The notes below the pieces were generated by a model, which worked only from the letters and a program-made list of their open reading frames with translations, did no database searches and was not told where the DNA came from. Source: an uncultured Pelagibacteraceae bacterium (GTDB lineage: Bacteria; Pseudomonadota; Alphaproteobacteria; Pelagibacterales; Pelagibacteraceae). From it: 64,000 nucleotides of DNA. The stretch covers positions 85,154-149,153 of the forward strand of contig CACGMR010000001.1 in assembly GCA_902574215.1 (NCBI GenBank), given 5' to 3'. The translations under genes were made by a program, and so were the position numbers. Below, piece by piece: positions 17,305-59,643 of this stretch. The stretch's first letter is position 1; every line of letters starts with the position of its first letter.

Positions 17305-17475
17305 AAAATATAAATTTAATATTTTTATATATACATATTTTAAAATATGTAACCAGCTAATAACATTGCATGTAAGTTATATTAAAGTAATATTGTATAT
17401 ATAAATTAAAAAATTTTACTTATTCCTCTTGTTCAATTATAAATATTAGCATAAACACCCATGAAATTCATTAAT

Positions 17476-17524
17476 GCCCTCGTGGTGAAATTGGTAGACA
17501 CAAAGGACTTAAAAGCCGAGGGAT
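17476..17524 (+). pseudogene. Truncated tRNA-Leu(TAA): 5' half plus 3' acceptor-strand remnant (left edge of island 1)
   Basis: gccctcgtggtgaaattggtagacacaaaggacttaaaa identical to the intact gene at 30415, then gccgaggga. Confidence 0.9.
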
Positions 17525-17625
17525 AGAAGTTAAAGTCAGTCCATAGTAGTCCAAGATAGTCTAAAACATCCTATAAAATCTCATAAGTTTAATTTGGCTT
17601 TCAATTAAGATTAGAAAATAAGACT
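17525..17625. repeat. Conserved island left-end sequence (copy at 29068-29168)
   Basis: gtcagtccatagtagtccaagatagtctaaaacatcctataaaatctcataagtttaat is nearly identical to the 29 kb copy; AGTCCATAGT/AGTCCAAGAT/AGTCTAAAAC/ATCCTATAAA phased at 10 bp. Confidence 0.85.
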
Positions 17626-17641
17626 TAATTAATTTGTGAAA

Positions 17642-17660
17642 ACCAGCACAAGACCAGCAC
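17642..17660. repeat. Paired direct repeat ACCAGCAC-AAG-ACCAGCAC, island 1 left
   Basis: Identical 19-mer recurs at 28917-28935. Confidence 0.9.
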
Positions 17661-17761
17661 ATAGAATGATAAATATTGTATAGTAAAATAATGAAAAAAC
17701 TTTTAGGGATCGTGATTCTTGGTTTATTCTTCAGTGGGAATTCTTTTAGGGAGGTAAGTTA

Positions 17762-18550
17762 ATGCATTTTCTTTACATTTTAGCGGCAATTCTGCCAGCT
17801 ATTTTAATTTTAATTTACTCTTATAAGCAAGACTCTTTTCCTGAACCACCAAAAATAGTTTTTAAAACTTTCCTTTTTGGTTGCGCAACAATTCTTGGAA
17901 TAGATTTAATAATATCAGAACTAGATAGTTTTAGTGATAACAATTTAAGCGGAGAAACATATAATTTTTTTGATACTTTTATAAGAGCGGCTTTTGTAGA
18001 GGAGTTTTTTAAATTTTGTGTAATTGTTTTTTATTGCACAAGAAAAACAGCTTTTGATGAACCAATGGATGGTTTAGTTTATGGTATAGCGGCATCTTTA
18101 GGTTTTGCAGCTTACGAGAATATCGGTTATGTACTTTATTTTTATAAAGAACCATCATTTGAAATTGCTATATTTAGAGCTTTTACGGCTGTTCCAATGC
18201 ATGCTCTTTGTGGAATTATGATGGGATTTTTAATTTCAAAATGTATTTTTGAAAAAAAAAATAATTACATGAATTTAATTTTAGCCCTTCTGATACCTGT
18301 TAGTATGCATGGGTTATATAATTTTAGTTTCACGAGTGAATTAATTTCACACCAATTAGCATATATGCTGTTGTTTATATTTACCATTATAACAATCATC
18401 ATGTTTAAAAGTTTAAAAAAGAAACAAAAAAAAGGTATAATATTCAATAAAAAATACTTTACGATTTCACTTTATAATTTTGTACAAGTTTCTACAGGGA
18501 TTTTAATTTTTTACTTAGGATTGAATTATTTGGTCTCAATTACAATTTAA
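17762..18550 (+). CDS. PrsW-family intramembrane metalloprotease
   Basis: VEEFFK (EExxK), DEPMDGLVYGIAASLGFAAYENIGY, RAFTAVPMHALCGIMMG; multiple TM segments. Confidence 0.88.
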   Translation: MHFLYILAAILPAILILIYSYKQDSFPEPPKIVFKTFLFGCATILGIDLIISELDSFSDNNLSGETYNFFDTFIRAAFVEEFFKFCVIVFYCTRKTAFDEPMDGLVYGIAASLGFAAYENIGYVLYFYKEPSFEIAIFRAFTAVPMHALCGIMMGFLISKCIFEKKNNYMNLILALLIPVSMHGLYNFSFTSELISHQLAYMLLFIFTIITIIMFKSLKKKQKKGIIFNKKYFTISLYNFVQVSTGILIFYLGLNYLVSITI

Positions 18551-19014
18551 TTTTTTTTATCAATAGAAATTTTTAATTTCATTATTTTGTTTTCTATAGA
18601 CTTAATAGAGTCAAAAATCTCTTTTTTTTCAATTGCACTTATCTCTTCACCTTTATCACTTTTTGGATCCTGAGCTTTTTTAATTACTTCAACAAGTTTT
18701 CCATGAAGAATAGTAAATTTTACTAAAACAGCGTCTAAATCATCATCATTATGTTGATCAATATTTGTAAAATTTGAAGACATTATGTACTCATGTGAGT
18801 TTAGTAGAGGAGGAGCTTTCTTCTTTTTAATACATGCTAAATCTAATTTAATGCTATCATTATGGTCTATTTGTTGAGGTTGATCTGGGTCGCTGCATTT
18901 TCTTAAAAAGGAAACACCTTTACCAATAGCTTCTTCGATTTCGTCTTCACTTAAAATTTTGATAACTTCAGCTACACCATTTTCTATAGATGAGATCTTT
19001 CTTATCTTTGCCAT
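18547..19014 (-). CDS. Hypothetical protein (155 aa)
   Basis: Intact ORF, convergent with PrsW gene; no family recognised. Confidence 0.6.
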   Translation of the reverse strand: MAKIRKISSIENGVAEVIKILSEDEIEEAIGKGVSFLRKCSDPDQPQQIDHNDSIKLDLACIKKKKAPPLLNSHEYIMSSNFTNIDQHNDDDLDAVLVKFTILHGKLVEVIKKAQDPKSDKGEEISAIEKKEIFDSIKSIENKIMKLKISIDKKN

Positions 19015-19128
19015 AAGATATTCTTATAATTAAATAAACATTTATAAAATCACTAATTTATATATTTGTCCAAAATTAATACTGAAATTACACAATAATA
19101 TTAAAAATTATAGTGTAATAGAATTGGT

Positions 19129-19236
19129 ATGAAATTAAACGCCAAAAAAGATAAAAAGATAATGAGAAGGGTATTTGTTATTACTTTGGCTATGATATTA
19201 GCTGCCACCATCATATCTACTGCTTACAGTCTGTAA
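19129..19236 (+). CDS. Possible 35-aa single-TM small protein (not in supplied ORF track)
   Basis: Translation MKLNAKKDKKIMRRVFVITLAMILAATIISTAYSL*; basic N-terminus + hydrophobic helix. Confidence 0.4.
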   Translation: MKLNAKKDKKIMRRVFVITLAMILAATIISTAYSL

Positions 19237-19293
19237 AATATTTTAAATTATAGGATTAAATGGGCTTTTTTTTTATTTCGTATACATTAGTGT

Positions 19294-20721
19294 TTGTATG
19301 TGAAATTTTTTAAACATTTATTCCTTATAATTTGTATTTTGTGCTCACAACAATTAGTTGCAAGTGAATGTGAAAACTTTGAGAATAAAGTTTTATCTAT
19401 TCCTTATCCAGAAAATGGAATGGTTACAGCAGGTGAACAGGCCAGAAACGATCTCGGGATATTTTTTCATCAGGAATATGATTATGACAAAGATGTAATT
19501 AAAATTAAGAGAGATAAAAATAATTACCCTATTTTAAAATTTTCATTTTTCGAAAAGAATTTAGAGCCAAGTAGCTCAATTATTAAAATTGATGAACAAG
19601 ATATTTCTAAATTAACCAAAAATGAAATTGAAAATCTTCTAGATAAAAAAGAGGTTAAAATTTCTACATTACAAGAATCATATGTTGTTAAAGCAGATAA
19701 ATACGATCTATACCCTTTTGAATTAGAGTTCTTTAACATTACTGCAATCGACGAGATAAAAACAAAAGAAGGTGAGTTTACTCTAGATTATAACTTTCAA
19801 GTATCTCATGAAAGGCCTGATTGGATTGAGGCTGGTAGAGAAATTGGAAATTTTACATATTGTTCATTGGAGAAAATTCATGAAAGCAATAAAATTTTTT
19901 CCCCTATTGGAGATTATGAATATTTAGTGCAAATAGGTTATGATCAAGACAAATCTTTTGCTGCCTATGAGCAAAGTTATTATGCAGATTTAGACAAAAC
20001 ATATTCTCTTGCCACTCGATCAGGTGTTGCAAGAATAAAGTCAGATTTTAATTTAAAAAAATTTCCTTTTGATGAACAGGTGTTGATAATTGAGCTATTT
20101 CCACCTTATGGAATAGTTTATAATGAGGACAACTATTACCCCAAACCATTCATCACATCATTTGTACCAAGAAATAATGTTTATTTAGATTTAATAAAAT
20201 ACAAAAATGAAAACTTTTTAAAAGAATGGACTGTTAAAAAAACAGAAATTGACAACATTTTGTATAAAACTAAATCAGCTTCACTGTTTGATAGAAGTAA
20301 AATTAAAGAAGCTATAGAAGATAGAATTCAAATAAAAATTACTGTTGAGAGAAATATTAACTATTTTATTTTTAAAATAATAATTCCAGTATTTTTAATT
20401 TTATCAATTGCGTGGTCTGTAATGTGGATACCACCAAATCAAGTTGAGTCCAGACTTACAACATCGATTGTAGCATTACTTGCTTTAATTGCTTATAACT
20501 TTGTCTTCAATGAAGACATCCCAAAATTATCTTATCTAACAAGCTTGGATAGATACATTTTATTATCTTATTTATTCTGTGCTATTCCAACTTTTCTAAC
20601 TATCTATTTTAGTAGATTGACCAAAAAAGATTATAAAATTGCGATAGCTATCAATAAAAAATCAAGACTATTTGGAATTATTATTTATTTAGTTTCTATA
20701 ATTATTATTTTCACAATTTAA
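19294..20721 (+). CDS. Bacterial pentameric ligand-gated ion channel (Cys-loop superfamily) with extra N-terminal domain
   Basis: FPFDEQVLIIEL (conserved FPFDxQ), M1 IIIPVFLILSIAWSVMW, M2/M3 LTTSIVALLALIAYNFVFNEDIPKLSYLTSLDRYILLSYLF closely follow the GLIC pattern. Confidence 0.87.
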   Translation: MYVKFFKHLFLIICILCSQQLVASECENFENKVLSIPYPENGMVTAGEQARNDLGIFFHQEYDYDKDVIKIKRDKNNYPILKFSFFEKNLEPSSSIIKIDEQDISKLTKNEIENLLDKKEVKISTLQESYVVKADKYDLYPFELEFFNITAIDEIKTKEGEFTLDYNFQVSHERPDWIEAGREIGNFTYCSLEKIHESNKIFSPIGDYEYLVQIGYDQDKSFAAYEQSYYADLDKTYSLATRSGVARIKSDFNLKKFPFDEQVLIIELFPPYGIVYNEDNYYPKPFITSFVPRNNVYLDLIKYKNENFLKEWTVKKTEIDNILYKTKSASLFDRSKIKEAIEDRIQIKITVERNINYFIFKIIIPVFLILSIAWSVMWIPPNQVESRLTTSIVALLALIAYNFVFNEDIPKLSYLTSLDRYILLSYLFCAIPTFLTIYFSRLTKKDYKIAIAINKKSRLFGIIIYLVSIIIIFTI

Positions 20722-21578
20722 CCAGTTAAACCATCACGTTTAGCTTTATAACACTTATCTTTGATATTTTCTTTAAATTGAATATTTTTATTAGCATTAA
20801 TAATTTTCTCAGGATTATTATATCTATCGTGAACAAAAAATTGATTATCATGAATAATAAAATAATCTGTTGGGTACGAATCTGATGTAAAGGGTTTTGT
20901 TGACATCACCTTAAGAGGATTTTCATCATATAAAACTAAAAGTTCCTGTTTTGTGAATTCCCTTGTGTAAGTTTTGATAAACTTATAATTTGTTAAATAA
21001 GCTCTATTAATATCATTTTCATTATTTAAAATAATTGTAAAGTAGAATATTTCGTTTGTATTTTTACAAACTAATAGCAATTTTTTATTAATTTTTGGTT
21101 TACTAAAATACTCTGAGGTTTGGTAAATTTTTCCTGTCCATGATTTTTGAATATATGGAGAAATTATAAAATCTTTTTCCTCAGCAGAAAAATTAAAATC
21201 AAATAAATCAAATAAGTTTTCCGAATATTTGCTAGCTTTTTTCCCTAATTTTGAGATAGTTACACCGTGGTTTAATCCAATTTCCACATTAGATTTATTT
21301 AAAGCCTGATCTAAATGATAATTGTGTGTGTCTTTTGTGACTTTATTGAAAATAATATCTTGATCTAGCTTTGTCTTAATTTTTTCTATACTTTTAGTTG
21401 GTGTATTCATTGCAGCTTCATCAGCAACATTTTTTCCACCCTTAAATAAATCGTCAAAAAAAGAAGGTATACCTTCAATAAATTCTTTAAACAATCTTAC
21501 TTTACCTGCGTGCGCATTACCAAAAACACATGTTGTAAGAAATAATATAATTAAAAAAAAATTAATTTTTTTTTTCAT
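20718..21578 (-). CDS. Secreted hypothetical protein (286 aa)
   Basis: N-terminal signal peptide MKKKINFFLIILFLTTCVFGNAHA; no family recognised. Confidence 0.6.
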   Translation of the reverse strand: MKKKINFFLIILFLTTCVFGNAHAGKVRLFKEFIEGIPSFFDDLFKGGKNVADEAAMNTPTKSIEKIKTKLDQDIIFNKVTKDTHNYHLDQALNKSNVEIGLNHGVTISKLGKKASKYSENLFDLFDFNFSAEEKDFIISPYIQKSWTGKIYQTSEYFSKPKINKKLLLVCKNTNEIFYFTIILNNENDINRAYLTNYKFIKTYTREFTKQELLVLYDENPLKVMSTKPFTSDSYPTDYFIIHDNQFFVHDRYNNPEKIINANKNIQFKENIKDKCYKAKRDGLTG

Positions 21579-21710
21579 CCAAAATTCTAATTAAAATTGG
21601 ACAAATTATATCTATATTTTTAAGTGTTTGTCCAAAAAAAACTATTCAATTACACAAGATTATCTAACTAAAAAATGTATTTTGAATTCATGAAAACAAA
21701 GGAGAAAACA

Positions 21711-21962
21711 ATGAAAAAACTAACTTTAATACCAATTGTATTTACTACATTTTTTTTAATACAATTTGCAATACCAACACAGTCTGTAGCACAAATAACT
21801 TGTTCAACAGATATTTTTGGAAATACACGTTGTGTAGATCGAGATTCAGGTAGTAGCTCTACTACAAGCACTGATATATTTGGAAACGATAATACAACTT
21901 TTAGTGATGGCAGTACAATGCAATGTAGAACTGATATTTTTGGAAACTATGTTTGTAATTAA
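21711..21962 (+). CDS. Small secreted TDIFGN-repeat protein
   Basis: Start moved to 21711 (preceded by aaaggag RBS); MKKLTLIPIVFTTFFLIQFAIPTQSVAQ signal peptide; three TDIFGN motifs. Confidence 0.7.
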   Translation: MKKLTLIPIVFTTFFLIQFAIPTQSVAQITCSTDIFGNTRCVDRDSGSSSTTSTDIFGNDNTTFSDGSTMQCRTDIFGNYVCN

Positions 21963-21971
21963 TAAAAAAAA

Positions 21972-22000
21972 TAAATCTCCCTATTATTTAGGGAGATTTA
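21972..22000. terminator. Strong hairpin downstream of TDIFGN protein
   Basis: TAAATCTCCCTA ... TAGGGAGATTTA inverted repeat. Confidence 0.65.
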
Positions 22001-22007
22001 AATAATC

Positions 22008-22193
22008 ATGAAAAGAAGAAAAAAAACTGAATTTTACTTATTAAGAAAAAGAAGTCTTTCTGAAGGTGACTTATTTATTACCGATTATATTCGAACAAAA
22101 CAAAGATTAGAAATTTTAGAAGAGCGGTTAACCCAATTGAATAACCTTATTAATGATAAGGAAATATTAGTAGATGATGACAAAAAAAATTAA
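22008..22193 (+). CDS. Hypothetical 61-aa charged protein upstream of GrpE/Hsp70 cassette
   Basis: Small intact ORF, co-oriented with the cassette. Confidence 0.45.
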   Translation: MKRRKKTEFYLLRKRSLSEGDLFITDYIRTKQRLEILEERLTQLNNLINDKEILVDDDKKN

Positions 22194-22250
22194 AACTTTA
22201 ATGATAGACAACACTTCCTATAATATGATTAACTATCTACTGGTAAAAAA

Positions 22251-22967
22251 ATGAGTCTATTACAATATTTATTCTTAGGGTTAATTATAATAGCTTTAAT
22301 TTTAGTAATTATATTATTCCTAAAACTTTACCAAAAAATTAAAAGCTCTGACAAAGATAGTATAAATTTAATTCAATTTCCTAAAGAAACCGAAAATAAG
22401 CTAGATCACTTTATAAATTTTGCAAAAAATGATCACCATAATTTAGTTAATGAATTTAAAAAAACTCAAAAATATTCAGATACATTAATTAAAGAACTTG
22501 ATAATAAAATTTCTCCATTTGAAAAAGTAGCTAGAGAAAAAAATGACGAACTCAAAGAGTATAAGAAAGGATATGAGTACTCAAGATATAAGGCACTTTT
22601 GGATGGTATCATTGAAACAATAATATTTATTGAAAATGCAGAAAGCAAAATAAATCCAAATGACGAAATTGCTAAATCTTATTTTCAAAGTACGAAAGAT
22701 AAATTACTAATTATATTAAATAATTCTGGCATCGAACCTTTTGTTCCAGAACTCAATATTCAAAGTTTAGATCACCAAGGTTGTGAGGTAGATATAAATA
22801 CTGAGCCAACAGACAAAAAAGAAAAAAATAATTTAATACACTCTGTGGTTGCCAAAGGTTACAAGCTAAATCTTAAAGACGGTACAGTTAATTACATAAA
22901 AAAAGCATTAGTTAAAGTTTATGAATTTGATAATCAAAATGTTGATAATGAAAAAAAAAATATATAA
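22251..22967 (+). CDS. Membrane-anchored GrpE-like nucleotide exchange factor
   Basis: N-terminal TM, coiled coil, then GrpE-like end: SGIEPFVPELNIQSLDHQGCEVD...IHSVVAKGYKLN...VNYIKKALVKVYEFD; directly upstream of Hsp70. Confidence 0.65.
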   Translation: MSLLQYLFLGLIIIALILVIILFLKLYQKIKSSDKDSINLIQFPKETENKLDHFINFAKNDHHNLVNEFKKTQKYSDTLIKELDNKISPFEKVAREKNDELKEYKKGYEYSRYKALLDGIIETIIFIENAESKINPNDEIAKSYFQSTKDKLLIILNNSGIEPFVPELNIQSLDHQGCEVDINTEPTDKKEKNNLIHSVVAKGYKLNLKDGTVNYIKKALVKVYEFDNQNVDNEKKNI

Positions 22968-22984
22968 GTTTTTAATTAATATTT

Positions 22985-24526
22985 ATGAGTAAAATTATTG
23001 GAATAGATTTAGGTACAACCTTTTCAGCTATAGCTGAGCTAGATGATTTAGGTAATCCAGAGATGTTATCTGACCCTGAAAATAATAATAGAATTACTCG
23101 ATCGGCAGTTTACATAGGGAGAGATAAAGCAATAGTTGGAGACAAAGCTGTTGATGCTGCGGTTACCAATAGAAATAGCACAGTGTTTGAAGTCAAAAGC
23201 CAAATGGAAAACAACGTAGTTTGGTCAAAAAAAGATGGAGAGTGGATAGAACAAGATGCAAAAAAAACAAGCAAGGGCTATACTCCTTCTCAAATATCCT
23301 CAATTATTTTATCTAAACTTAAGGATTACACCTCTGGTGTAAAAAAAGCTGTTGTTACTGTTCCTGCAATGTTTGCTGATGCAGCACGAGATGCAACTTT
23401 AGATGCAGCTAAACTGGCAAAATTAGATGTAGAACTAATTAATGAACCAACCGCTGCTGTACTACATTATGCAAATTTACCTGGCTCATCTATAAATGGA
23501 AGAGTTCTTATATTTGATTTGGGAGGTGGTACATTTGATATAACGATAGCAAATGTTAAAGGAAAGAAGGTCGATGTTATTACATCTGTTGGTGATAAGC
23601 ATCTTGGTGGCAGACGTTTTGATGAAGAAATAATTAATTTAATAGATAAGAAATATAAGAAAGCAAAAGGAAAAGGACTAGTTAAACCTTTAGAAGATGA
23701 GAGTCTTTTTACTATTGCAGAGAGAATAAAGAAAATATTATCCACCAAAGATAAAGCATCGGAAATTATAGAAGGCCCTAAAGGCCCTCAAAAAATTGAT
23801 ATATCTAGAAGTGAATTTGAGAATTCAATAGATACTTATATTGAAAAAATAAAAATGCTCATGGAAGAGGCACTAGAGAGTAAAGACTTAAAGGCCAACA
23901 ACATTTCTCAGACTTTATTAGTTGGTGGCAGTACAAGAATGCCTATTATAAATAAAGTTATTACAAAAATTATGAAAAAAGCTCCTGTTAAAGGAGTTAA
24001 TGTAGATGAGGCTGTAGCATGTGGAGCTGCTATATATGCTGGGCTTCAAAATAAAGGAAATCTAAATTCAGCACAAAAAAAATCGCTATCAAATGTAGAA
24101 TTAAATGATGTTTGTAATTATTACTTGGGCACATTAGCCATTATATATGACAAGGAAAGAGATATGGGGATTCAAATTAATGATATTGTGATTCCAAGAG
24201 ATACAAAACTTCCTTGCTCAATCACAAAAACTTATACAGTAGTATCAGATGGTCAGAAGGGAATTGATTGTTCTGTAACTCAAAGCGAGGGTGAAGAAAA
24301 AGATAAAGAATTCGTTAATATATTGTCAAATGAAATTCTTGATCTTTCCAAAAATGCGAAAGCAGGCGACCCAATTGAGGTTACATATTCTTATGATAAT
24401 AGTGGAAAGATCCATTGTATTTTCGAAGATAAAAAATCCAAAAAAAAACATGAGATTAGTTTAAAGCCAGCAGGCGCTAAGGATTTAAAAGAATTAAAAG
24501 AAAATTTAGATTTTGATATAGAATAA
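22985..24526 (+). CDS. Hsp70/DnaK-like chaperone, short form (513 aa)
   Basis: GIDLGTTFSAIAE, VVTVPAMFADAARDAT, NEPTAAVLHYA, IFDLGGGTFDITI, VGGSTRMPII; C-terminus too short for a full helical lid. Confidence 0.92.
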   Translation: MSKIIGIDLGTTFSAIAELDDLGNPEMLSDPENNNRITRSAVYIGRDKAIVGDKAVDAAVTNRNSTVFEVKSQMENNVVWSKKDGEWIEQDAKKTSKGYTPSQISSIILSKLKDYTSGVKKAVVTVPAMFADAARDATLDAAKLAKLDVELINEPTAAVLHYANLPGSSINGRVLIFDLGGGTFDITIANVKGKKVDVITSVGDKHLGGRRFDEEIINLIDKKYKKAKGKGLVKPLEDESLFTIAERIKKILSTKDKASEIIEGPKGPQKIDISRSEFENSIDTYIEKIKMLMEEALESKDLKANNISQTLLVGGSTRMPIINKVITKIMKKAPVKGVNVDEAVACGAAIYAGLQNKGNLNSAQKKSLSNVELNDVCNYYLGTLAIIYDKERDMGIQINDIVIPRDTKLPCSITKTYTVVSDGQKGIDCSVTQSEGEEKDKEFVNILSNEILDLSKNAKAGDPIEVTYSYDNSGKIHCIFEDKKSKKKHEISLKPAGAKDLKELKENLDFDIE

Positions 24527-24529
24527 TTT

Positions 24530-25753
24530 ATGGAAGGTATAGTTATTTGGATTGTTATAATAGCGGGGTGGTGGGTAATAAAGTCTATTTTTTCTTCAGC
24601 ATTTGGTGGTGGAGGAAGTTTAAGTAATGCAGATCGTCAAGAACTTTACGATAAATTAAAACTGCAGCTTAAAGTATCTGAGGAAATTCCACCAAAAGAA
24701 AGAGGTTTACCAGATCAAAAATGCTTAGCAGTTAAAGTTAAGGGACTTTTTGGCCATCCTACAGAAAATAAAACTAAAATTTTTTTAACAATTCATGATA
24801 ATACGGAGCTAGGTGATGATGAATTTGGGCCACCAGTACTTTCAGCCCACCCATCTTTTGCAGAAAAAAATAATAGAGTTTTTAGCCTTACAACAGTTTG
24901 GGAAACATCTTCAGACACATATTTTCCCGACTGGTATAATTTAATATATATTCCAAAAGAACTTATTCTTGCACCTTATAAGGGAAGAAGAAATCTAAAA
25001 TTTAATTTTACAGCATGTGATACGGACGCTGAAGTTCATCATAGTGCACATGACGACCTAGAAAAAATCAAATATAGCGCTTCTACTATTTACAAATTTA
25101 CATCCAAAGAAATTGGATATCTAGAAGAATTTAAAAATAGAGATAAGGTAGAAGATCTGACAATAAATCTAGCGATGAACATGGCTGCTTCTGATGGTCA
25201 TTTAGATCAAAAGGAATTAAATGTTATTAAAGATTGGGCTAAAAGTTTAACTCTTGAGCTTGATGAAGATAAAGCTTCAGAAAAGAAAAAGCATTTTGCA
25301 AAACTTATTAAGGAAACTTACAAAATAGCACAAACTAAGAAAGCATCTATTTCTAAACTTGTTTCTGAATTTAATGATAAAGCAAGTAAAAGCCAAAAAT
25401 ACCTAGCAATAGAACTAATGTTAAATGTTGCTAGCTCAGACTCAAAATTAGCAAAAGAAGAAGAGCAATTTGTAAATAAGATTGCCAAAAGTATTGGAAT
25501 TGATCTTCAAACTTTTAAAGAAATGAAAAATAAAGTCATTGCAAATGTCGATAAAATTGATTTTGCTGAAAAACCCTCTGAGGCAAGTTTTGGTATAACT
25601 GATGATATGGATGATGCTGAGAAAAGAAAAATTCTTCGAAAAGAATACACTAAGTGGAATGGTCAAACTAATCATAAAGATCCAAAGAAAAAGAAAAGAG
25701 CTAAAGAGATGGTTAAAATAATTGCCGACTTAAGGAAGCAATACAGCCATTAA
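24530..25753 (+). CDS. Membrane-anchored TerB-like protein with degenerate J-like C-terminus
   Basis: N-terminal TM + Gly-rich stretch; MNMAASDGHLDQKELNVI and MLNVASSDSKLAKEEEQFV TerB-type acidic motifs; C-term LRKEYTKWNGQTNHKDPKKKKRAKEMVKIIADLRKQY resembles a J-domain. Confidence 0.65.
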   Translation: MEGIVIWIVIIAGWWVIKSIFSSAFGGGGSLSNADRQELYDKLKLQLKVSEEIPPKERGLPDQKCLAVKVKGLFGHPTENKTKIFLTIHDNTELGDDEFGPPVLSAHPSFAEKNNRVFSLTTVWETSSDTYFPDWYNLIYIPKELILAPYKGRRNLKFNFTACDTDAEVHHSAHDDLEKIKYSASTIYKFTSKEIGYLEEFKNRDKVEDLTINLAMNMAASDGHLDQKELNVIKDWAKSLTLELDEDKASEKKKHFAKLIKETYKIAQTKKASISKLVSEFNDKASKSQKYLAIELMLNVASSDSKLAKEEEQFVNKIAKSIGIDLQTFKEMKNKVIANVDKIDFAEKPSEASFGITDDMDDAEKRKILRKEYTKWNGQTNHKDPKKKKRAKEMVKIIADLRKQYSH

Positions 25754-26904
25754 TGGATTTTTTAGATAAGTTTAAATATCATAAAGATGATCCATCTGAA
25801 TTTGGAATTGATTTAAAAGAATTCAAAAAAAAAACTAGTGAATTAGATAATAGTCACCTATCTAACTTATTAACAAATTCAGTAAGGGTAGATAGGGAAA
25901 TATTACCTAAAGTTGGTAAGGCGATAGATGTTGTATTTAAGAGAATTAAAATTGAAAATGTATTTAATTTTTTTATAACTCCAGACAATAACCAAGCAAA
26001 TGCTTCATGTAGTTTAATGTCTTCAGCATCAAGGCCTGATATTATTTTAACTTCTAGATTAATTGAATTATTATCATTAGAGGAACTCCAATTTGTAATA
26101 GGGCACGAAGTTGCACATTATATCTATCAACACGCACTGTATCCAAATTTCAATAATGTGGACGATAGAAATTTAAAATTAAATATTTTAAATCTAAGTA
26201 GAGCTGCAGAAATAAGTGCTGACAGAATTGGTTTTTTATCATGTGCTAATCTTGAAGATTCGTTACGAGCTAATTTTAAGCTAGCATCAGGACTAAGTGA
26301 TAAATATTTTAATTTTAAACCCTCCACATATCTTGATCAACTTAGAGATTTAGAGGATTTAGGTAAAAGTTCTCACGAGTTATGGAGCACACATCCAAGT
26401 TTCTTAATAAGGATGCAGTCTTTAATCTGGTTTTCTATGACAAAAGAGTATCATGAGTTCTTTGATAAAAAAGTTAAAGGAACATATGATTTAAAAGAAA
26501 TAGACAAGAAACTTGATTTAAAAATCAAAAAAATTACTGGAGATGAATTAGAAAAATCAAATACAGATATATATGAAAGAGCACTTATCTGGGGTTCATT
26601 GAATATTTATTTAAGTGATAAAAAATTCACTAAAATAGAACAAGAAGAATTTGCTAAAAGATTTGGAGAAAAATCTAAAAAGGCTATCTCGTTATTAAAG
26701 GTTTCTAATGCTAGAGACATACTAGATCAAAAGATAGACGAGTCATTTAATGATGCTGCCAAATTATTAAAAACAGATAAAAATAAACTAGTAGAAGAAC
26801 TTAAGTTAGTTGGCAAGGAGACAGGTGGAGATAAAATGAAGAAATTAAAAATTCTTGGAAAGTTGTTAAATATTTTAGGTATTAAAAAACCCGTTAATTT
26901 TTGA
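25753..26904 (+). CDS. M48-type metallopeptidase
   Basis: FVIGHEVAHYIYQH (HExxH) and AAEISADRIGF (ExxxD). Confidence 0.85.
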   Translation: MDFLDKFKYHKDDPSEFGIDLKEFKKKTSELDNSHLSNLLTNSVRVDREILPKVGKAIDVVFKRIKIENVFNFFITPDNNQANASCSLMSSASRPDIILTSRLIELLSLEELQFVIGHEVAHYIYQHALYPNFNNVDDRNLKLNILNLSRAAEISADRIGFLSCANLEDSLRANFKLASGLSDKYFNFKPSTYLDQLRDLEDLGKSSHELWSTHPSFLIRMQSLIWFSMTKEYHEFFDKKVKGTYDLKEIDKKLDLKIKKITGDELEKSNTDIYERALIWGSLNIYLSDKKFTKIEQEEFAKRFGEKSKKAISLLKVSNARDILDQKIDESFNDAAKLLKTDKNKLVEELKLVGKETGGDKMKKLKILGKLLNILGIKKPVNF

Positions 26905-26941
26905 TTTTATAAATTATATAAAAAAATAAAAATATTATTAT

Positions 26942-27106
26942 TTATTTATTACCCACATTTAAAATTAAGAGACCTATACCTCCAAAAACATATGGAGTGA
27001 AAGTAGATAACGGTCCTAAAAAATAAGTAAGATTTATTTGTGCAAAGTTTCCAAGTAAAAAATCTGCAACACCAATAATTATTAATATATATCCTAAGAT
27101 TTGCAT
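26942..27106 (-). CDS. Small hydrophobic protein, 54 aa (not in supplied ORF track)
   Basis: Reverse-strand translation MQILGYILIIIGVADFLLGNFAQINLTYFLGPLSTFTPYVFGGIGLLILNVGNK*; two TM-like helices; more protein-like than the overlapping track ORF 26949..27140. Confidence 0.55.
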   Translation of the reverse strand: MQILGYILIIIGVADFLLGNFAQINLTYFLGPLSTFTPYVFGGIGLLILNVGNK

Positions 27107-27216
27107 GAGAAAGAATTATATATTTATTAGCTAAAAACAATTAAAAAATTTTCACTTAAAAAGTGTATTAAAATTTAAATTAGATTGAATTATCAATATA
27201 TTTCTGAGAATATAAT

Positions 27217-28509
27217 TTGGACATTATGAAGTTGTTTATTTTATTGTTTTTACAATTTTTATTTTTCCTAAATTTAAATGCTAATGAAATTAATTTAAAC
27301 GATCCATTCTATAAGCTAGGTTGGAAAAATTTAGAAAACCCAGAAATTTCTAGAATTCAAATTCCCAATGCGAATGCTAGCATAGAAATCATCAAGTCTG
27401 AGATCTACTTAAATACTAAACAAGATATAAAAAATTTTGAAGAATATTTATATAACCAAGAATATAACATTGATGATATTGATGAAAAATTAATTATTTC
27501 TGACAATGAGCAATACTATAAAATTGAAGCTAAATATTATGATGAAGGTTATATTACAACAGACAGATTTAAAAATTTTAAATCATCAGATTTACTCGAG
27601 ACAATTAACAAAAATAAATCAGAATCAATTGATAAATTTTCTTGGGCTTTAGAGCCAACCATTTCTGAAAATATGATTTCAACTTATGGATATAAGGTGA
27701 AGTGGAAAGATGGAGATATAACTTACTGGTATTATGGAAATATACTAGGCAGAAATGGTTACGTTGAATTAAAAATGGTTCTTTTTGGTGATGAATCAGA
27801 TGGAGATGATTTCTTTAATTATTATGGAGATTTAATTAATCAGATTTCTTCTACTGTTGAATTTAATGATCAATATAAATATTCAGATTTTACTCAAGAT
27901 GACTATCTATCATCTTATACTCTAACAAATATAATTGACGGAAGCTGGGGGGAAGGTACAGCTACTGATCTTACAAATATTATTGCCAATTGTTTAATTA
28001 CAACTGAAGCTTTAAAAAAAGCAGGTATAGCTGAGTCAGATTATCCCAGGTTTGCAGGTAAGGTAATTAATTTTTATATTTCAGATGTTAGAAATGAGAT
28101 CATTGATTTATCTATAGATGATGAGGTGAATGTCATATCAGGAATGTATGGCATTGAAGATAAGCAAAATTTTCAAAAACTTAACATATCTCATAATAAT
28201 CCAAATACTTTTGATCTTAGTTACACCAATATAATAGAAGTAGTTGGTGATAAAAAGACAGACAAGTCAAAATATGAATATAAAAATAAATTGGTTATTA
28301 AAGATGGTATACCTAAGCTTATGTTTGCAAAGATTGATCAAACAGGTTTATCATTTAATAAATGGAATTTAACACTAGGTTGTAAGAGCGAAGACTTTAC
28401 AGAAGAAGAAATAGCATCAGCTAAATTTGTTAAGTCTAAATCAATATCAGGCATGGATCCAAAAAAGCTAGAAGAGATAATTAAAAAACTTAAAGAAAGG
28501 AGCGAATAG
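27217..28509 (+). CDS. Secreted hypothetical protein (430 aa)
   Basis: Signal peptide LFILLFLQFLFFLNLNANE; no family recognised. Confidence 0.65.
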   Translation: MDIMKLFILLFLQFLFFLNLNANEINLNDPFYKLGWKNLENPEISRIQIPNANASIEIIKSEIYLNTKQDIKNFEEYLYNQEYNIDDIDEKLIISDNEQYYKIEAKYYDEGYITTDRFKNFKSSDLLETINKNKSESIDKFSWALEPTISENMISTYGYKVKWKDGDITYWYYGNILGRNGYVELKMVLFGDESDGDDFFNYYGDLINQISSTVEFNDQYKYSDFTQDDYLSSYTLTNIIDGSWGEGTATDLTNIIANCLITTEALKKAGIAESDYPRFAGKVINFYISDVRNEIIDLSIDDEVNVISGMYGIEDKQNFQKLNISHNNPNTFDLSYTNIIEVVGDKKTDKSKYEYKNKLVIKDGIPKLMFAKIDQTGLSFNKWNLTLGCKSEDFTEEEIASAKFVKSKSISGMDPKKLEEIIKKLKERSE

Positions 28510-28512
28510 ATT

Positions 28513-28875
28513 ATGAGTGTAAATATTCTCAATATCAATGATTTTAATAATGAGATAAGAAATTATATTCCTTTTCACGAAGTCAGTAGCCCACCTAGAA
28601 TAGGTGATGTAGAGGGACAAGATTTCGAATGTGGTTGTGGAGATATTCACATTATGAATTTTGATCAACATTATTTCATAGCTGATGGAGGAATGTTTAA
28701 AGCTGTTTTTTTGTCTCCAGCTTGTGGTTTTTTAAATGCATTAAAATTAAAAAAAATGTTTTCAAGTGGAATTGAGAATCTGTGTAGTACTAAATTTTTA
28801 GCTGAAAAACCTAATTATGGATTTCAAAGTTATCCAGATATAGCAGGCTCTATTAACAAGTATTTTGGACGGTAA
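28513..28875 (+). CDS. Hypothetical protein (120 aa), CGCG motif
   Basis: Intact ORF following 27217..28509; FECGCGDIHIMNFDQHYFIADGG. Confidence 0.55.
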   Translation: MSVNILNINDFNNEIRNYIPFHEVSSPPRIGDVEGQDFECGCGDIHIMNFDQHYFIADGGMFKAVFLSPACGFLNALKLKKMFSSGIENLCSTKFLAEKPNYGFQSYPDIAGSINKYFGR

Positions 28876-28897
28876 ATAATTTTTCAATGAAAAAACT

Positions 28898-28960
28898 TAT
28901 AGGACTTCATCGGATAACCAGCACAAGACCAGCACATAGAGAGATAAAATAAAAAAAATT
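28898..28960. repeat. Conserved island right-end sequence (copy at 30293-30355)
   Basis: tataggacttYatSggaYaacYagYacMagacYagYac...agataaaataaaaaaaatttacttatt shared by both copies. Confidence 0.8.
28917..28935. repeat. Paired direct repeat ACCAGCAC-AAG-ACCAGCAC, island 1 right
   Basis: Identical to 17642-17660. Confidence 0.9.
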
Positions 28961-29019
28961 TACTTATTAACCTTGTTCAATTATAAATATTAGCATAAAC
29001 ACTCATGAAATTCATTAAT

Positions 29020-29067
29020 GCCCTCGTGGTGAAATTGGTAGACACAAAGGACTTAAAAGCCGAGGGA
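29020..29067 (+). pseudogene. Truncated tRNA-Leu(TAA), second copy (island 1/island 2 junction)
   Basis: Same 5' half and same gccgaggga remnant as 17476..17524. Confidence 0.9.
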
Positions 29068-29184
29068 TTCACATTTTAGTCAGTCCATAGTAGTCCAAGG
29101 TAGTCTAAACATCCTATAAAATCTCATAAGTTTAATTAAGCTTTCAAATAAGATTAGAAAATAAAGCTTATTTAATTTGTGCAG

Positions 29185-29203
29185 ACTAGTACTAAACTAG
29201 TAC
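29185..29203. repeat. Paired direct repeat ACTAGTAC-TAA-ACTAGTAC, island 2 left
   Basis: 11-bp spacing; 8-mers match 30312-30330. Confidence 0.9.
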
Positions 29204-29233
29204 CTGGATAGATAATATTATAAGCTTTTATCA

Positions 29234-29419
29234 ATGAAAATTAAAAAAGGTATTTTTAGAATTTATATAGTTTTAAGTGTTATGTGGTTTTGTTTTTTTT
29301 TCATTGGTTTTATCGATCAAGACTGGAACTATAATATTGAAAAAGAATTATTAATAATTTCCCTTATACCACTGCCATTATATTTTATTCTTAAATGGAT
29401 AGCTAAAGGTTTTGAATAA
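29234..29419 (+). CDS. Small two-TM membrane protein (61 aa)
   Basis: Hydrophobic IYIVLSVMWFCFFFIGFI and LIISLIPLPLYFILKWI. Confidence 0.5.
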   Translation: MKIKKGIFRIYIVLSVMWFCFFFIGFIDQDWNYNIEKELLIISLIPLPLYFILKWIAKGFE

Positions 29420-30285
29420 TGAAAAAACTTTTAGGAATGATATTGATCAGTTTGTTATGTTTTAATTTTTCTATTGCAGATAACAATGAAGAGCTGAAGT
29501 TAATTGAAGATTATAAAGAAAAATTATTGGATAGTGGAAGTAAACGGGATTTAAAACAAGTTGAAAAAATTTGTTCTAAATACCAAGATGATAAAGCAAA
29601 AAATATAATTGCTGACAGTGAAATCTTGTCATTCCTTTGCTCTGGAGGTGTAAGTATGCTTATTACCAGCGAGTATAATGATATGTTATTAGATAAAAGC
29701 ATATCACATATTGATACGTGCAATGAATATAAGAAAATTCCAATAGAGGTGGGTGAGTACGACCAAATGAGTTTGAATACTCATATAGGTATAATGAATT
29801 ATTGTGAGACTGTTGAGTTAAGAGCAAATTTTAAGCAGGATGCGAAACATAATCTAATTAAAGATTTAGATTTAGAAAAACTTAACTTTAACTTCTTATC
29901 AAATAAATATTATTCATTATCCATACCTGAAAAGGACATTACTAAAAAAGCCTCTTGTTTTCTTAATCTTAAAGAAGAAAAAAGTTTAGACTACAAAGAT
30001 ATAAAGGAAAGATGTGGGGTTGAAAGCGTTACATATCAAGAGGAAAGTCCCGCAGGTTCAGAAGGTGAGCTTGCATCATATGAATTAATAAGTGAAAGTG
30101 ATTTAACACGTAATTGGATTGTAATATTAGATTACTTTTATGCAGATGCTAATGAAGATGGTTATATGGATTTAGTTATAAGATTTAAAAATGATGGTAG
30201 CTATTCTATGGCAGTTCAAACCATGACTACAGTTATAACATCTTTAAGTGCAAATAATTATAAAATACTTAATTATAATAAATAG
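29419..30285 (+). CDS. Secreted hypothetical protein (288 aa)
   Basis: Signal peptide MKKLLGMILISLLCFNFSIA; no family recognised. Confidence 0.6.
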   Translation: MKKLLGMILISLLCFNFSIADNNEELKLIEDYKEKLLDSGSKRDLKQVEKICSKYQDDKAKNIIADSEILSFLCSGGVSMLITSEYNDMLLDKSISHIDTCNEYKKIPIEVGEYDQMSLNTHIGIMNYCETVELRANFKQDAKHNLIKDLDLEKLNFNFLSNKYYSLSIPEKDITKKASCFLNLKEEKSLDYKDIKERCGVESVTYQEESPAGSEGELASYELISESDLTRNWIVILDYFYADANEDGYMDLVIRFKNDGSYSMAVQTMTTVITSLSANNYKILNYNK

Positions 30286-30311
30286 ATTTAAATATAGGAC
30301 TTTATGGGACA

Positions 30312-30330
30312 ACTAGTACCAGACTAGTAC
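30312..30330. repeat. Paired direct repeat ACTAGTAC-CAG-ACTAGTAC, island 2 right
   Basis: 11-bp spacing; 8-mers match 29185-29203. Confidence 0.9.
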
Positions 30331-30414
30331 CTAGGAAGATAAAATAAAAAAAATTTACTTATTCCTCTTGTTCAATTATAAATATTAGCATAAACACTCA
30401 TGAAATTCATTAAT

Positions 30415-30500
30415 GCCCTCGTGGTGAAATTGGTAGACACAAAGGACTTAAAATCCTTGCCGCTTGCGGAGTGCCAGTTCGAGTCTGGCCGAGGGCACCA
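30415..30500 (+). tRNA. tRNA-Leu(TAA), intact, CCA encoded
   Basis: Anticodon arm aagga-cttaaaa-tcctt; acceptor GCCCTCG/CGAGGGC; long variable arm; TTCGAGT. Confidence 0.95.
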
Positions 30501-59504: not shown

Positions 59505-59532
59505 TTGACAAAGATCTATTAATAAGTAATTT
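59505..59532 (+). promoter_or_regulatory. Candidate sigma70 promoter upstream of rpsL
   Basis: TTGACA - 16 nt - TAATTT. Confidence 0.5.
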
Positions 59533-59554
59533 GGCGTTGTTTTTGGTTGGAATG

Positions 59555-59605
59555 TAGTACTTCTAACAGTACTAAACGCTGCCACAAAATAACCTGTCAG
59601 TTATT
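59555..59605 (+). promoter_or_regulatory. rpsL 5' leader with two short hairpins
   Basis: TAGTAC-TTCTAACA-GTACTA (59555-59574) and AATAAC-CTGTCA-GTTATT (59588-59605). Confidence 0.45.
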
Positions 59606-59643
59606 TTCATCTAAAAATAAATTAATTAATTTTAAAAAAATTT

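Follow-up and report, generated by a model that had tools for sequence, protein, structure and literature searches.

Probable serial insertion of integrase-less cargo islands at the tRNA-Leu(TAA) gene of SAR11 bacteria, with matched tandem pairs at the island ends

The tRNA-Leu(TAA) gene of an uncultured SAR11 bacterium (Pelagibacteraceae) was found to be preceded by two cargo islands in a 64,000-nucleotide stretch of DNA (assembly GCA_902574215.1, contig CACGMR010000001.1, positions 85,154 to 149,153), hereafter the window, whose genome (G000) is 69% complete and consists of 43 contigs. From the comparison of this locus with those of related genomes we regard it as likely that such islands, which carry no integrase, are inserted one after the other in the anticodon loop of the gene by a tyrosine integrase acting in trans. 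SAR11 bacteria rank among the most abundant cells on Earth, their small genomes contain few recognised mobile elements, and the gain and loss of their genes is poorly understood; common stacking islands with diagnostic ends would make recent gene gain traceable, by a simple sequence signature, in any genome or metagenome of SAR11.

The 39-nt 5′ half of tRNA-Leu(TAA) was present in three exact copies in the window, with none expected in shuffled sequences, and ARAGORN, in agreement with Rfam, identified a single tRNA-Leu(TAA), which starts at the third copy; the other two halves do not continue into a tRNA (Table 1). The ~70 nt preceding each half are nearly identical in the three copies, a C/T difference included, as a preliminary description of this DNA had reported together with the three-copy arrangement. 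The repeat proved to be longer than described there, with copies 1 and 2 remaining alike for ~160 nt past the 5′ half (92% and then 83% identity; start GCCGAGGG / GCCGAGGGAT). This stretch is the left end common to island 1 and island 2, and it carries, after GCCGAGGGAT, three AGTC motifs at 10-bp spacing. The right ends of both islands are also alike and consist of a TATAGGATTTTATAGGATAAC-like sequence, a tandem pair, and a GAGATAAAATAAAAAAAATTTACTTATT-like sequence, followed by the upstream block. These right ends, as well as the matched tandem pairs at both ends of both islands (ACTAGTACnnnACTAGTAC in island 2), are additional to the preliminary description. Its proposal that the 5′ half rather than the 3′ half is duplicated, supplying a promoter, holds for the duplicated side, which has precedents in cyanophages and pelagiphages, whereas the putative promoter role of the upstream block is one of position; a scan of this block for the sigma-70 consensus found nothing. 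The tail that follows the orphan 5′ halves (17515-17522 and 29059-29066) contains CGAGGG, which can pair with the CCCTCG of the tRNA acceptor strand. A structured RNA made of orphan half and tail was considered and rejected, as folding was no better than in shuffled sequences (z of -0.7 and -0.4).

The upstream and 5′-half block was matched in 119 of 151 genomes of the genus, in many of them at two to six places. Sixty fetched loci (L numbers) were compared with the window; they were picked for multiple copies, and the counts are not occupancy frequencies. In this set, from 0 to 3 5′ halves precede the full tRNA copy, which, where present, is always the rightmost, and the variable interval is flanked by conserved sfsA-cinA-GGCT genes and NAD kinase. 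A 325-bp flanking sequence abuts a 5′ half in L051, L035, L042, and L058, and the full tRNA in L065, with identities of 83-97% (92% between L051 and L065); L065 shows the unoccupied state of the site. Locus L059 matches L069, with 97% identity over 2.9 kb, and has an additional island next to the tRNA. The stranded block of L059 is the block that precedes the tRNA in L069, and the working tRNA of L059 now has a different one. This pair of loci catches a second insertion, in which the upstream block and 5′ half were replaced by those of the newcomer. Stepwise stacking was also observed in L057 in comparison with L063, L087, and L076. Islands are common, and some are shared between genomes at 97-100% identity, and stacked. 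The preliminary description had proposed stacked insertions, each arrival renewing the 5′ half and its upstream region, and had pointed to a comparison of tRNA-Leu(TAA) loci; the L051/L065 flank, the L069/L059 step, and the exchanged upstream block bear this out, empty, single, and multiple occupancy were all seen among the relatives, and the range of 0 to 3 halves departs from the constant set of halves, or fixed interval, that would have spoken against it.

Some other states of the site were recorded. An interval of 2177 bp between halves, without arm pairs and with two minus-strand open reading frames, has the same length in L035 (4534-6711), L042 (3016-5193), and L065 (5941-8118; all oriented), and may represent an older or different insertion. 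L092 (7208-7475, oriented) contains a cargo-less island of 267 bp, in which left and right ends are joined at one arm pair, and L252 (1963-17197) contains, in a closed genome, a 15-kb island at the same site encoding a PD-(D/E)XK nuclease, a pilin-like N_methyl protein, an 853-aa protein, and mostly unknown families.

According to the mechanism that we propose, a circular island would carry a copy of the upstream region and 5′ half of the target gene, and would undergo site-specific recombination in the anticodon loop of tRNA-Leu(TAA). The old 5′ half would be stranded at the left and the host 3′ half joined to the 5′ half of the island, resulting in a rebuilt tRNA gene ready for the next arrival on its tRNA-proximal side. 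The integrase would be supplied in trans, closed hosts encoding only a conserved Xer-like recombinase that lacks an arm-binding region.

In most islands, a ~7-nt motif occurs twice in direct orientation, with an 11-bp period, at either end. A recognised pair was present at both ends in 41 of 53 intervals between halves, and the left and right 7-mers were identical in 37 of these 41 islands, with 4 mismatches in 287 positions. When the pairing of the ends was permuted, the mismatches were never fewer than 68 in 20,000 trials and no trial was as good as the real pairing, which rules out a chance repeat. Sixteen variants of the motif were found among different islands. In contrast with the motif, the 3-nt spacer within the pair was mismatched between left and right at 48 of 123 positions (39%), and the 12 nt that precede the pair at 324 of 492 (66%); the 12 nt after the pair were more alike (21% different). 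Because spacer and preceding bases have diverged, the match of the ends is not due to recent copying of one end onto the other, and constraint on the motif can explain it. Motif variants are associated with the sequence class of the left tail, to a degree reached in 0 of 2000 permutations, which is what several lineages of integrase would be expected to produce.

Phage integrases bind arm-type sites, mycobacteriophage L5 being one example. Scans of 399 genomes of the genus and of 398 genomes of the order, two overlapping sets, detected arm-bearing tyrosine integrases in 19 and 18 genomes, respectively. In nearly all cases a tandem pair with a period of 10-12 bp (mostly 11) was located within ~50 bp upstream of the integrase gene (TGTCACAagccTGTCACA, GGTCGCActatGGTCGCA, CTGCAACactaCTGCAAC, and others). 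A second copy of the pair, in the same orientation and several kb away, was present in seven loci (L125, L204, L208, L209, L211, L214, and L218). Several of the integrase-bearing islands (L125, L204, L218, L219, L224, L227, L229, and L230, at tRNA-Gly, -Met, -Ser, or -Val) resemble the tRNA-Leu islands in the duplicated 5′ part of a tRNA, the tandem pair near the integrase gene, and the matching far-end pair where seen, but differ in the integrase adjoining the left end, in their targets, and in their arm motifs. A candidate integrase-bearing island at tRNA-Leu(TAA) itself, L216, was discarded since it sits at the neighbouring tRNA-Thr (fragment read by eye). Given such matched pairs immediately before the integrase gene of integrase-bearing SAR11 islands, the tandem pairs of the integrase-less islands are most likely arm-type sites as well; the N-terminal domain of the tyrosine integrase concerned would read one variant of the motif.

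The same right ends were found before tRNA-Ser(TGA), including one case in the genome of the window (L129), and before the gene of a 75-aa protein, the first ~20 codons of which were left behind as 22-aa stubs. This class of island thus duplicates the 5′ side at three unrelated targets: tRNA-Leu, tRNA-Ser(TGA), and a small protein gene. A wider picture, which we hold with slightly less than even confidence, is that of a large SAR11 family of integrase-free islands with interchangeable matched arms acting as address codes (at least 16), each served by one of a pool of separately travelling integrases (in phages, vesicles, or rare helper islands), with three docking genes whose 5′ end is renewed at each arrival. 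Which integrase moves integrase-less elements, and why their arm sites stay matched, are the questions that these islands pose.

A search for PF00589 in 40 island-bearing genomes gave no match inside the tRNA-Leu islands. Most of these genomes contained one match only, a Xer-like recombinase of ~317 aa located beside glycosyltransferase and surface-polysaccharide-type genes (L095, L099, L104, and others), which is probably the 'probable phage integrase' of hypervariable region 2 (HVR2) in PMC2217521. Closed genomes G298 and G385 contain islands with arm pairs and a single PF00589 match, located elsewhere. Since islands have no such match even in closed genomes, the enzyme that moves them would not be encoded in them. 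Three observations weigh against the mechanism proposed: 12 of the 53 intervals have no recognisable pair at one or both ends, some of them decayed in appearance; none of the integrases found in the genomes searched has arms of the CYNGNNN kind present in the islands, the trans-acting enzyme being hypothetical; and no excised circle was seen.

An alternative, which we consider unlikely, is that the islands are phage satellites that use the integrase, and perhaps the capsids, of a pelagiphage attaching at the same tRNA-Leu 5′ half. Phages HTVC105P, HTVC109P, and MedDCM-OCT-S35-C6 do have a tRNA-Leu 5′ half just downstream of the integrase gene, and a 46-bp tRNA-Leu match is reported for such a phage (PMC3861242). 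Attachment at a tRNA-Leu 5′ half is also published for T7-like cyanophages, whose four att motifs all correspond to the first half of that tRNA (PMC8776855). These phages coincide with the islands in the tRNA, the half, and the side of the crossover (PMC8776855, PMC3861242), but they carry an integrase and different flanks at the phage attachment site (attP), and no phage genes were recognised in the islands. In the pelagiphage attP regions inspected by eye (L096 4590-4830, L098 2910-3110), the 5′ half is flanked by inverted GTAGCGGA / TCCGCTAC motifs and not by tandem pairs of the island type. The left end of the islands gave no meaningful match in phage and plasmid collections, and the use of tRNA-Ser and of a protein gene as additional targets also argues against satellites. 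None of the structural, replication, and integrase genes of a pelagiphage prophage was recognised in the window islands. As for satellites of the type of phage-inducible chromosomal islands (PICI) or their minimalist counterparts (PICMI), the islands have no integrase, and PHROGs searches with 92 cargo proteins named no packaging, capsid, or capsid-interference family among the first 25 families listed for their top hits.

It is also unlikely that the islands are dead remnants, that is, integrase-bearing islands that lost the integrase after insertion and became immobile. Stacking of integrase-less elements by accretion is known from cis-mobilizable elements (CIMEs) among the streptococcal islands of integrative and conjugative (ICE) or integrative and mobilizable (IME) elements, and their formation by decay is documented (PMC5704250); some of our intervals, without arms or with degenerate halves, would fit such an origin. 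CIMEs have both att ends, no integrase or transfer genes, and site-specific accretion at one chromosomal site (PMC5704250). Both window islands likewise have matching ends (arm pairs and 5′ halves) and no recognised integration or transfer genes, according to the matches of their cargo and to the PF00589 search. On the other hand, CIMEs are generally decayed ICEs or IMEs, with 3′-end gene targets as examples (PMC5704250), whereas the SAR11 islands are integrase-less as a rule, as small as 0.27-1.4 kb, and directed to the 5′ side of three sites with matched island-specific arm pairs. With regard to a possible derivation from an ICE or IME by decay, no decayed transfer genes were recognised in them, and integrase-bearing relatives exist at other sites. 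The 40 genomes showed no intermediate that retains part of an integrase. The maintenance of matched arms next to diverging bases, and the abundance, stacking, and near identity between genomes of some islands, argue for elements that may still be mobile.

Integration by the Xer-like recombinase, present beside HVR2-type genes in nearly every SAR11 genome, appears improbable. It is the only tyrosine recombinase in closed island-holding genomes, but it starts directly with the SAM-like core-binding domain, without the extra N-terminal region of arm-bearing integrases, and neither the 16 matched arm variants nor the three unrelated targets would be accounted for by a single universal enzyme. Finally, an artefact of assembly or single-cell amplification, or a simple tandem duplication of this half of the tRNA, can practically be dismissed in spite of the incompleteness of the window genome, given that many independent genomes, some of them single contigs, share this structure with different intervening DNA each time, and that closed genomes refute the artefact.

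Replacement of a 5′ end is known from dusA islands, which insert in the 5′ end of their target gene, provide a new 5′ end and promoter of their own in its place, and leave the original 5′ end upstream (PMC4482086). These islands differ from the SAR11 ones in having their own integrase and dusA as target (tRNA-Leu, tRNA-Ser, or the 75-aa protein gene in the integrase-less islands), and integrase-less stacks are not described in PMC4482086. Cargo islands at tRNA genes of streamlined ocean bacteria are common to SAR11 and to the tycheposons of Prochlorococcus. Tycheposons are defined by hallmark genes that include a tyrosine recombinase, which is absent from the SAR11 islands; the two share integration at tRNA genes but not a recombinase inside the element. 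We found no description of small islands that lack an integrase, form a family throughout a genus, have matched arm pairs specific to each island, and use three 5′-side targets, the comparison with tycheposons being based on the second-hand description in PMC10872708.

The features of the window islands are listed in Table 1. Island 2 may also encode a 61-aa protein. The cargo of the two window islands gave no recognised match to an integrase, transposase, relaxase, transfer, or phage structural family.

Table 1. Features of the two islands at tRNA-Leu(TAA) (window positions)
Feature	Position	Strand	Evidence
Upstream block (putative tRNA promoter), original host copy	17403..17475	+	Three-way repeat; no island right end before leftmost copy
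Orphan tRNA-Leu(TAA) 5′ half, copy 1	17476..17514	+	Exact 39-nt match
Island 1 (11,544 bp), crossover to crossover	17515..29058	+	Flanked by 5′ halves; left and right arm pairs match
AGTC x3, 10-bp spacing (17538, 17548, 17558), island 1 left tail	17538..17561	+	
Left arm pair, island 1, ACCAGCACaagACCAGCAC	17642..17660	+	
PrsW-family intramembrane protease, cargo island 1	17762..18550	+	PF13367 4e-36
Unknown protein, cargo island 1	18547..19014	-	Sub-threshold Phage_CP76 match
Ligand-gated-ion-channel-like protein, cargo island 1	19294..20721	+	PF02932 1.2e-7; NF033918 2e-20 (below its cut-off)
Protein of unknown function, cargo island 1	20718..21578	-	
GrpE-like protein, cargo island 1	22251..22967	+	PF01025 1.4e-6
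Hsp70/DnaK-like protein, cargo island 1	22985..24526	+	PF00012 6.5e-83
TerB-domain protein, cargo island 1	24530..25753	+	PF05099 5.6e-15
M48-family metallopeptidase, cargo island 1	25753..26904	+	PF01435 6.7e-16
DUF2167 protein, cargo island 1	27217..28509	+	PF09935 4e-12
Small unknown protein, cargo island 1	28513..28875	+	
Right arm pair, island 1, identical to left pair ACCAGCACaagACCAGCAC	28917..28935	+	
Upstream block brought by island 1 (putative)	28947..29019	+	Repeat comparison
Orphan tRNA-Leu(TAA) 5′ half, copy 2, brought by island 1 (putative)	29020..29058	+	Exact 39-nt match
Island 2 (1,395 bp), crossover to crossover	29059..30453	+	
Left arm pair, island 2, ACTAGTACtaaACTAGTAC	29185..29203	+	
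288-aa protein, signal-peptide-like start, no known family, cargo island 2	29419..30285	+	
Right arm pair, island 2, ACTAGTACcagACTAGTAC	30312..30330	+	
Upstream block brought by island 2 (putative), now before working tRNA	30342..30414	+	Repeat comparison
Complete tRNA-Leu(TAA): 5′ half from island 2, 3′ half from host (putative)	30415..30500	+	ARAGORN, Rfam

Islands of the same kind elsewhere carry type I restriction genes, methylases, HAD hydrolases, transporters, and others. A defence reading of the cargo was not retained: elsewhere there are a mad5 match and specificity subunits of type I restriction systems, and the window cargo (PrsW, Hsp70/GrpE/TerB/M48) was not shown to be defensive. 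Outside the islands, Rfam identified an rpsL small RNA (RF01823, 91.6 bits) at window positions 59531-59621.

Cargo is common to islands at other sites and to integrase-bearing islands, as in L062 and L208 (94% protein identity) and in L042 and L171, where an 855-bp cassette is 98% identical. A DNA module of ~32 bp, ATGAAAAAACTTTTAGGGATCGTGGTTCTGGG, encoding the signal-peptide start MKKLLGIVVLG, occurred 32 times in 23 loci, among them the window (17690-17721 and 29419-29442), L171 (8690-8723), and L042 (5407-5440). Because the L042/L171 cassette starts at this module in spite of the different genes and arms of the two islands, the data suggest that cassettes may be exchanged between islands at this module.

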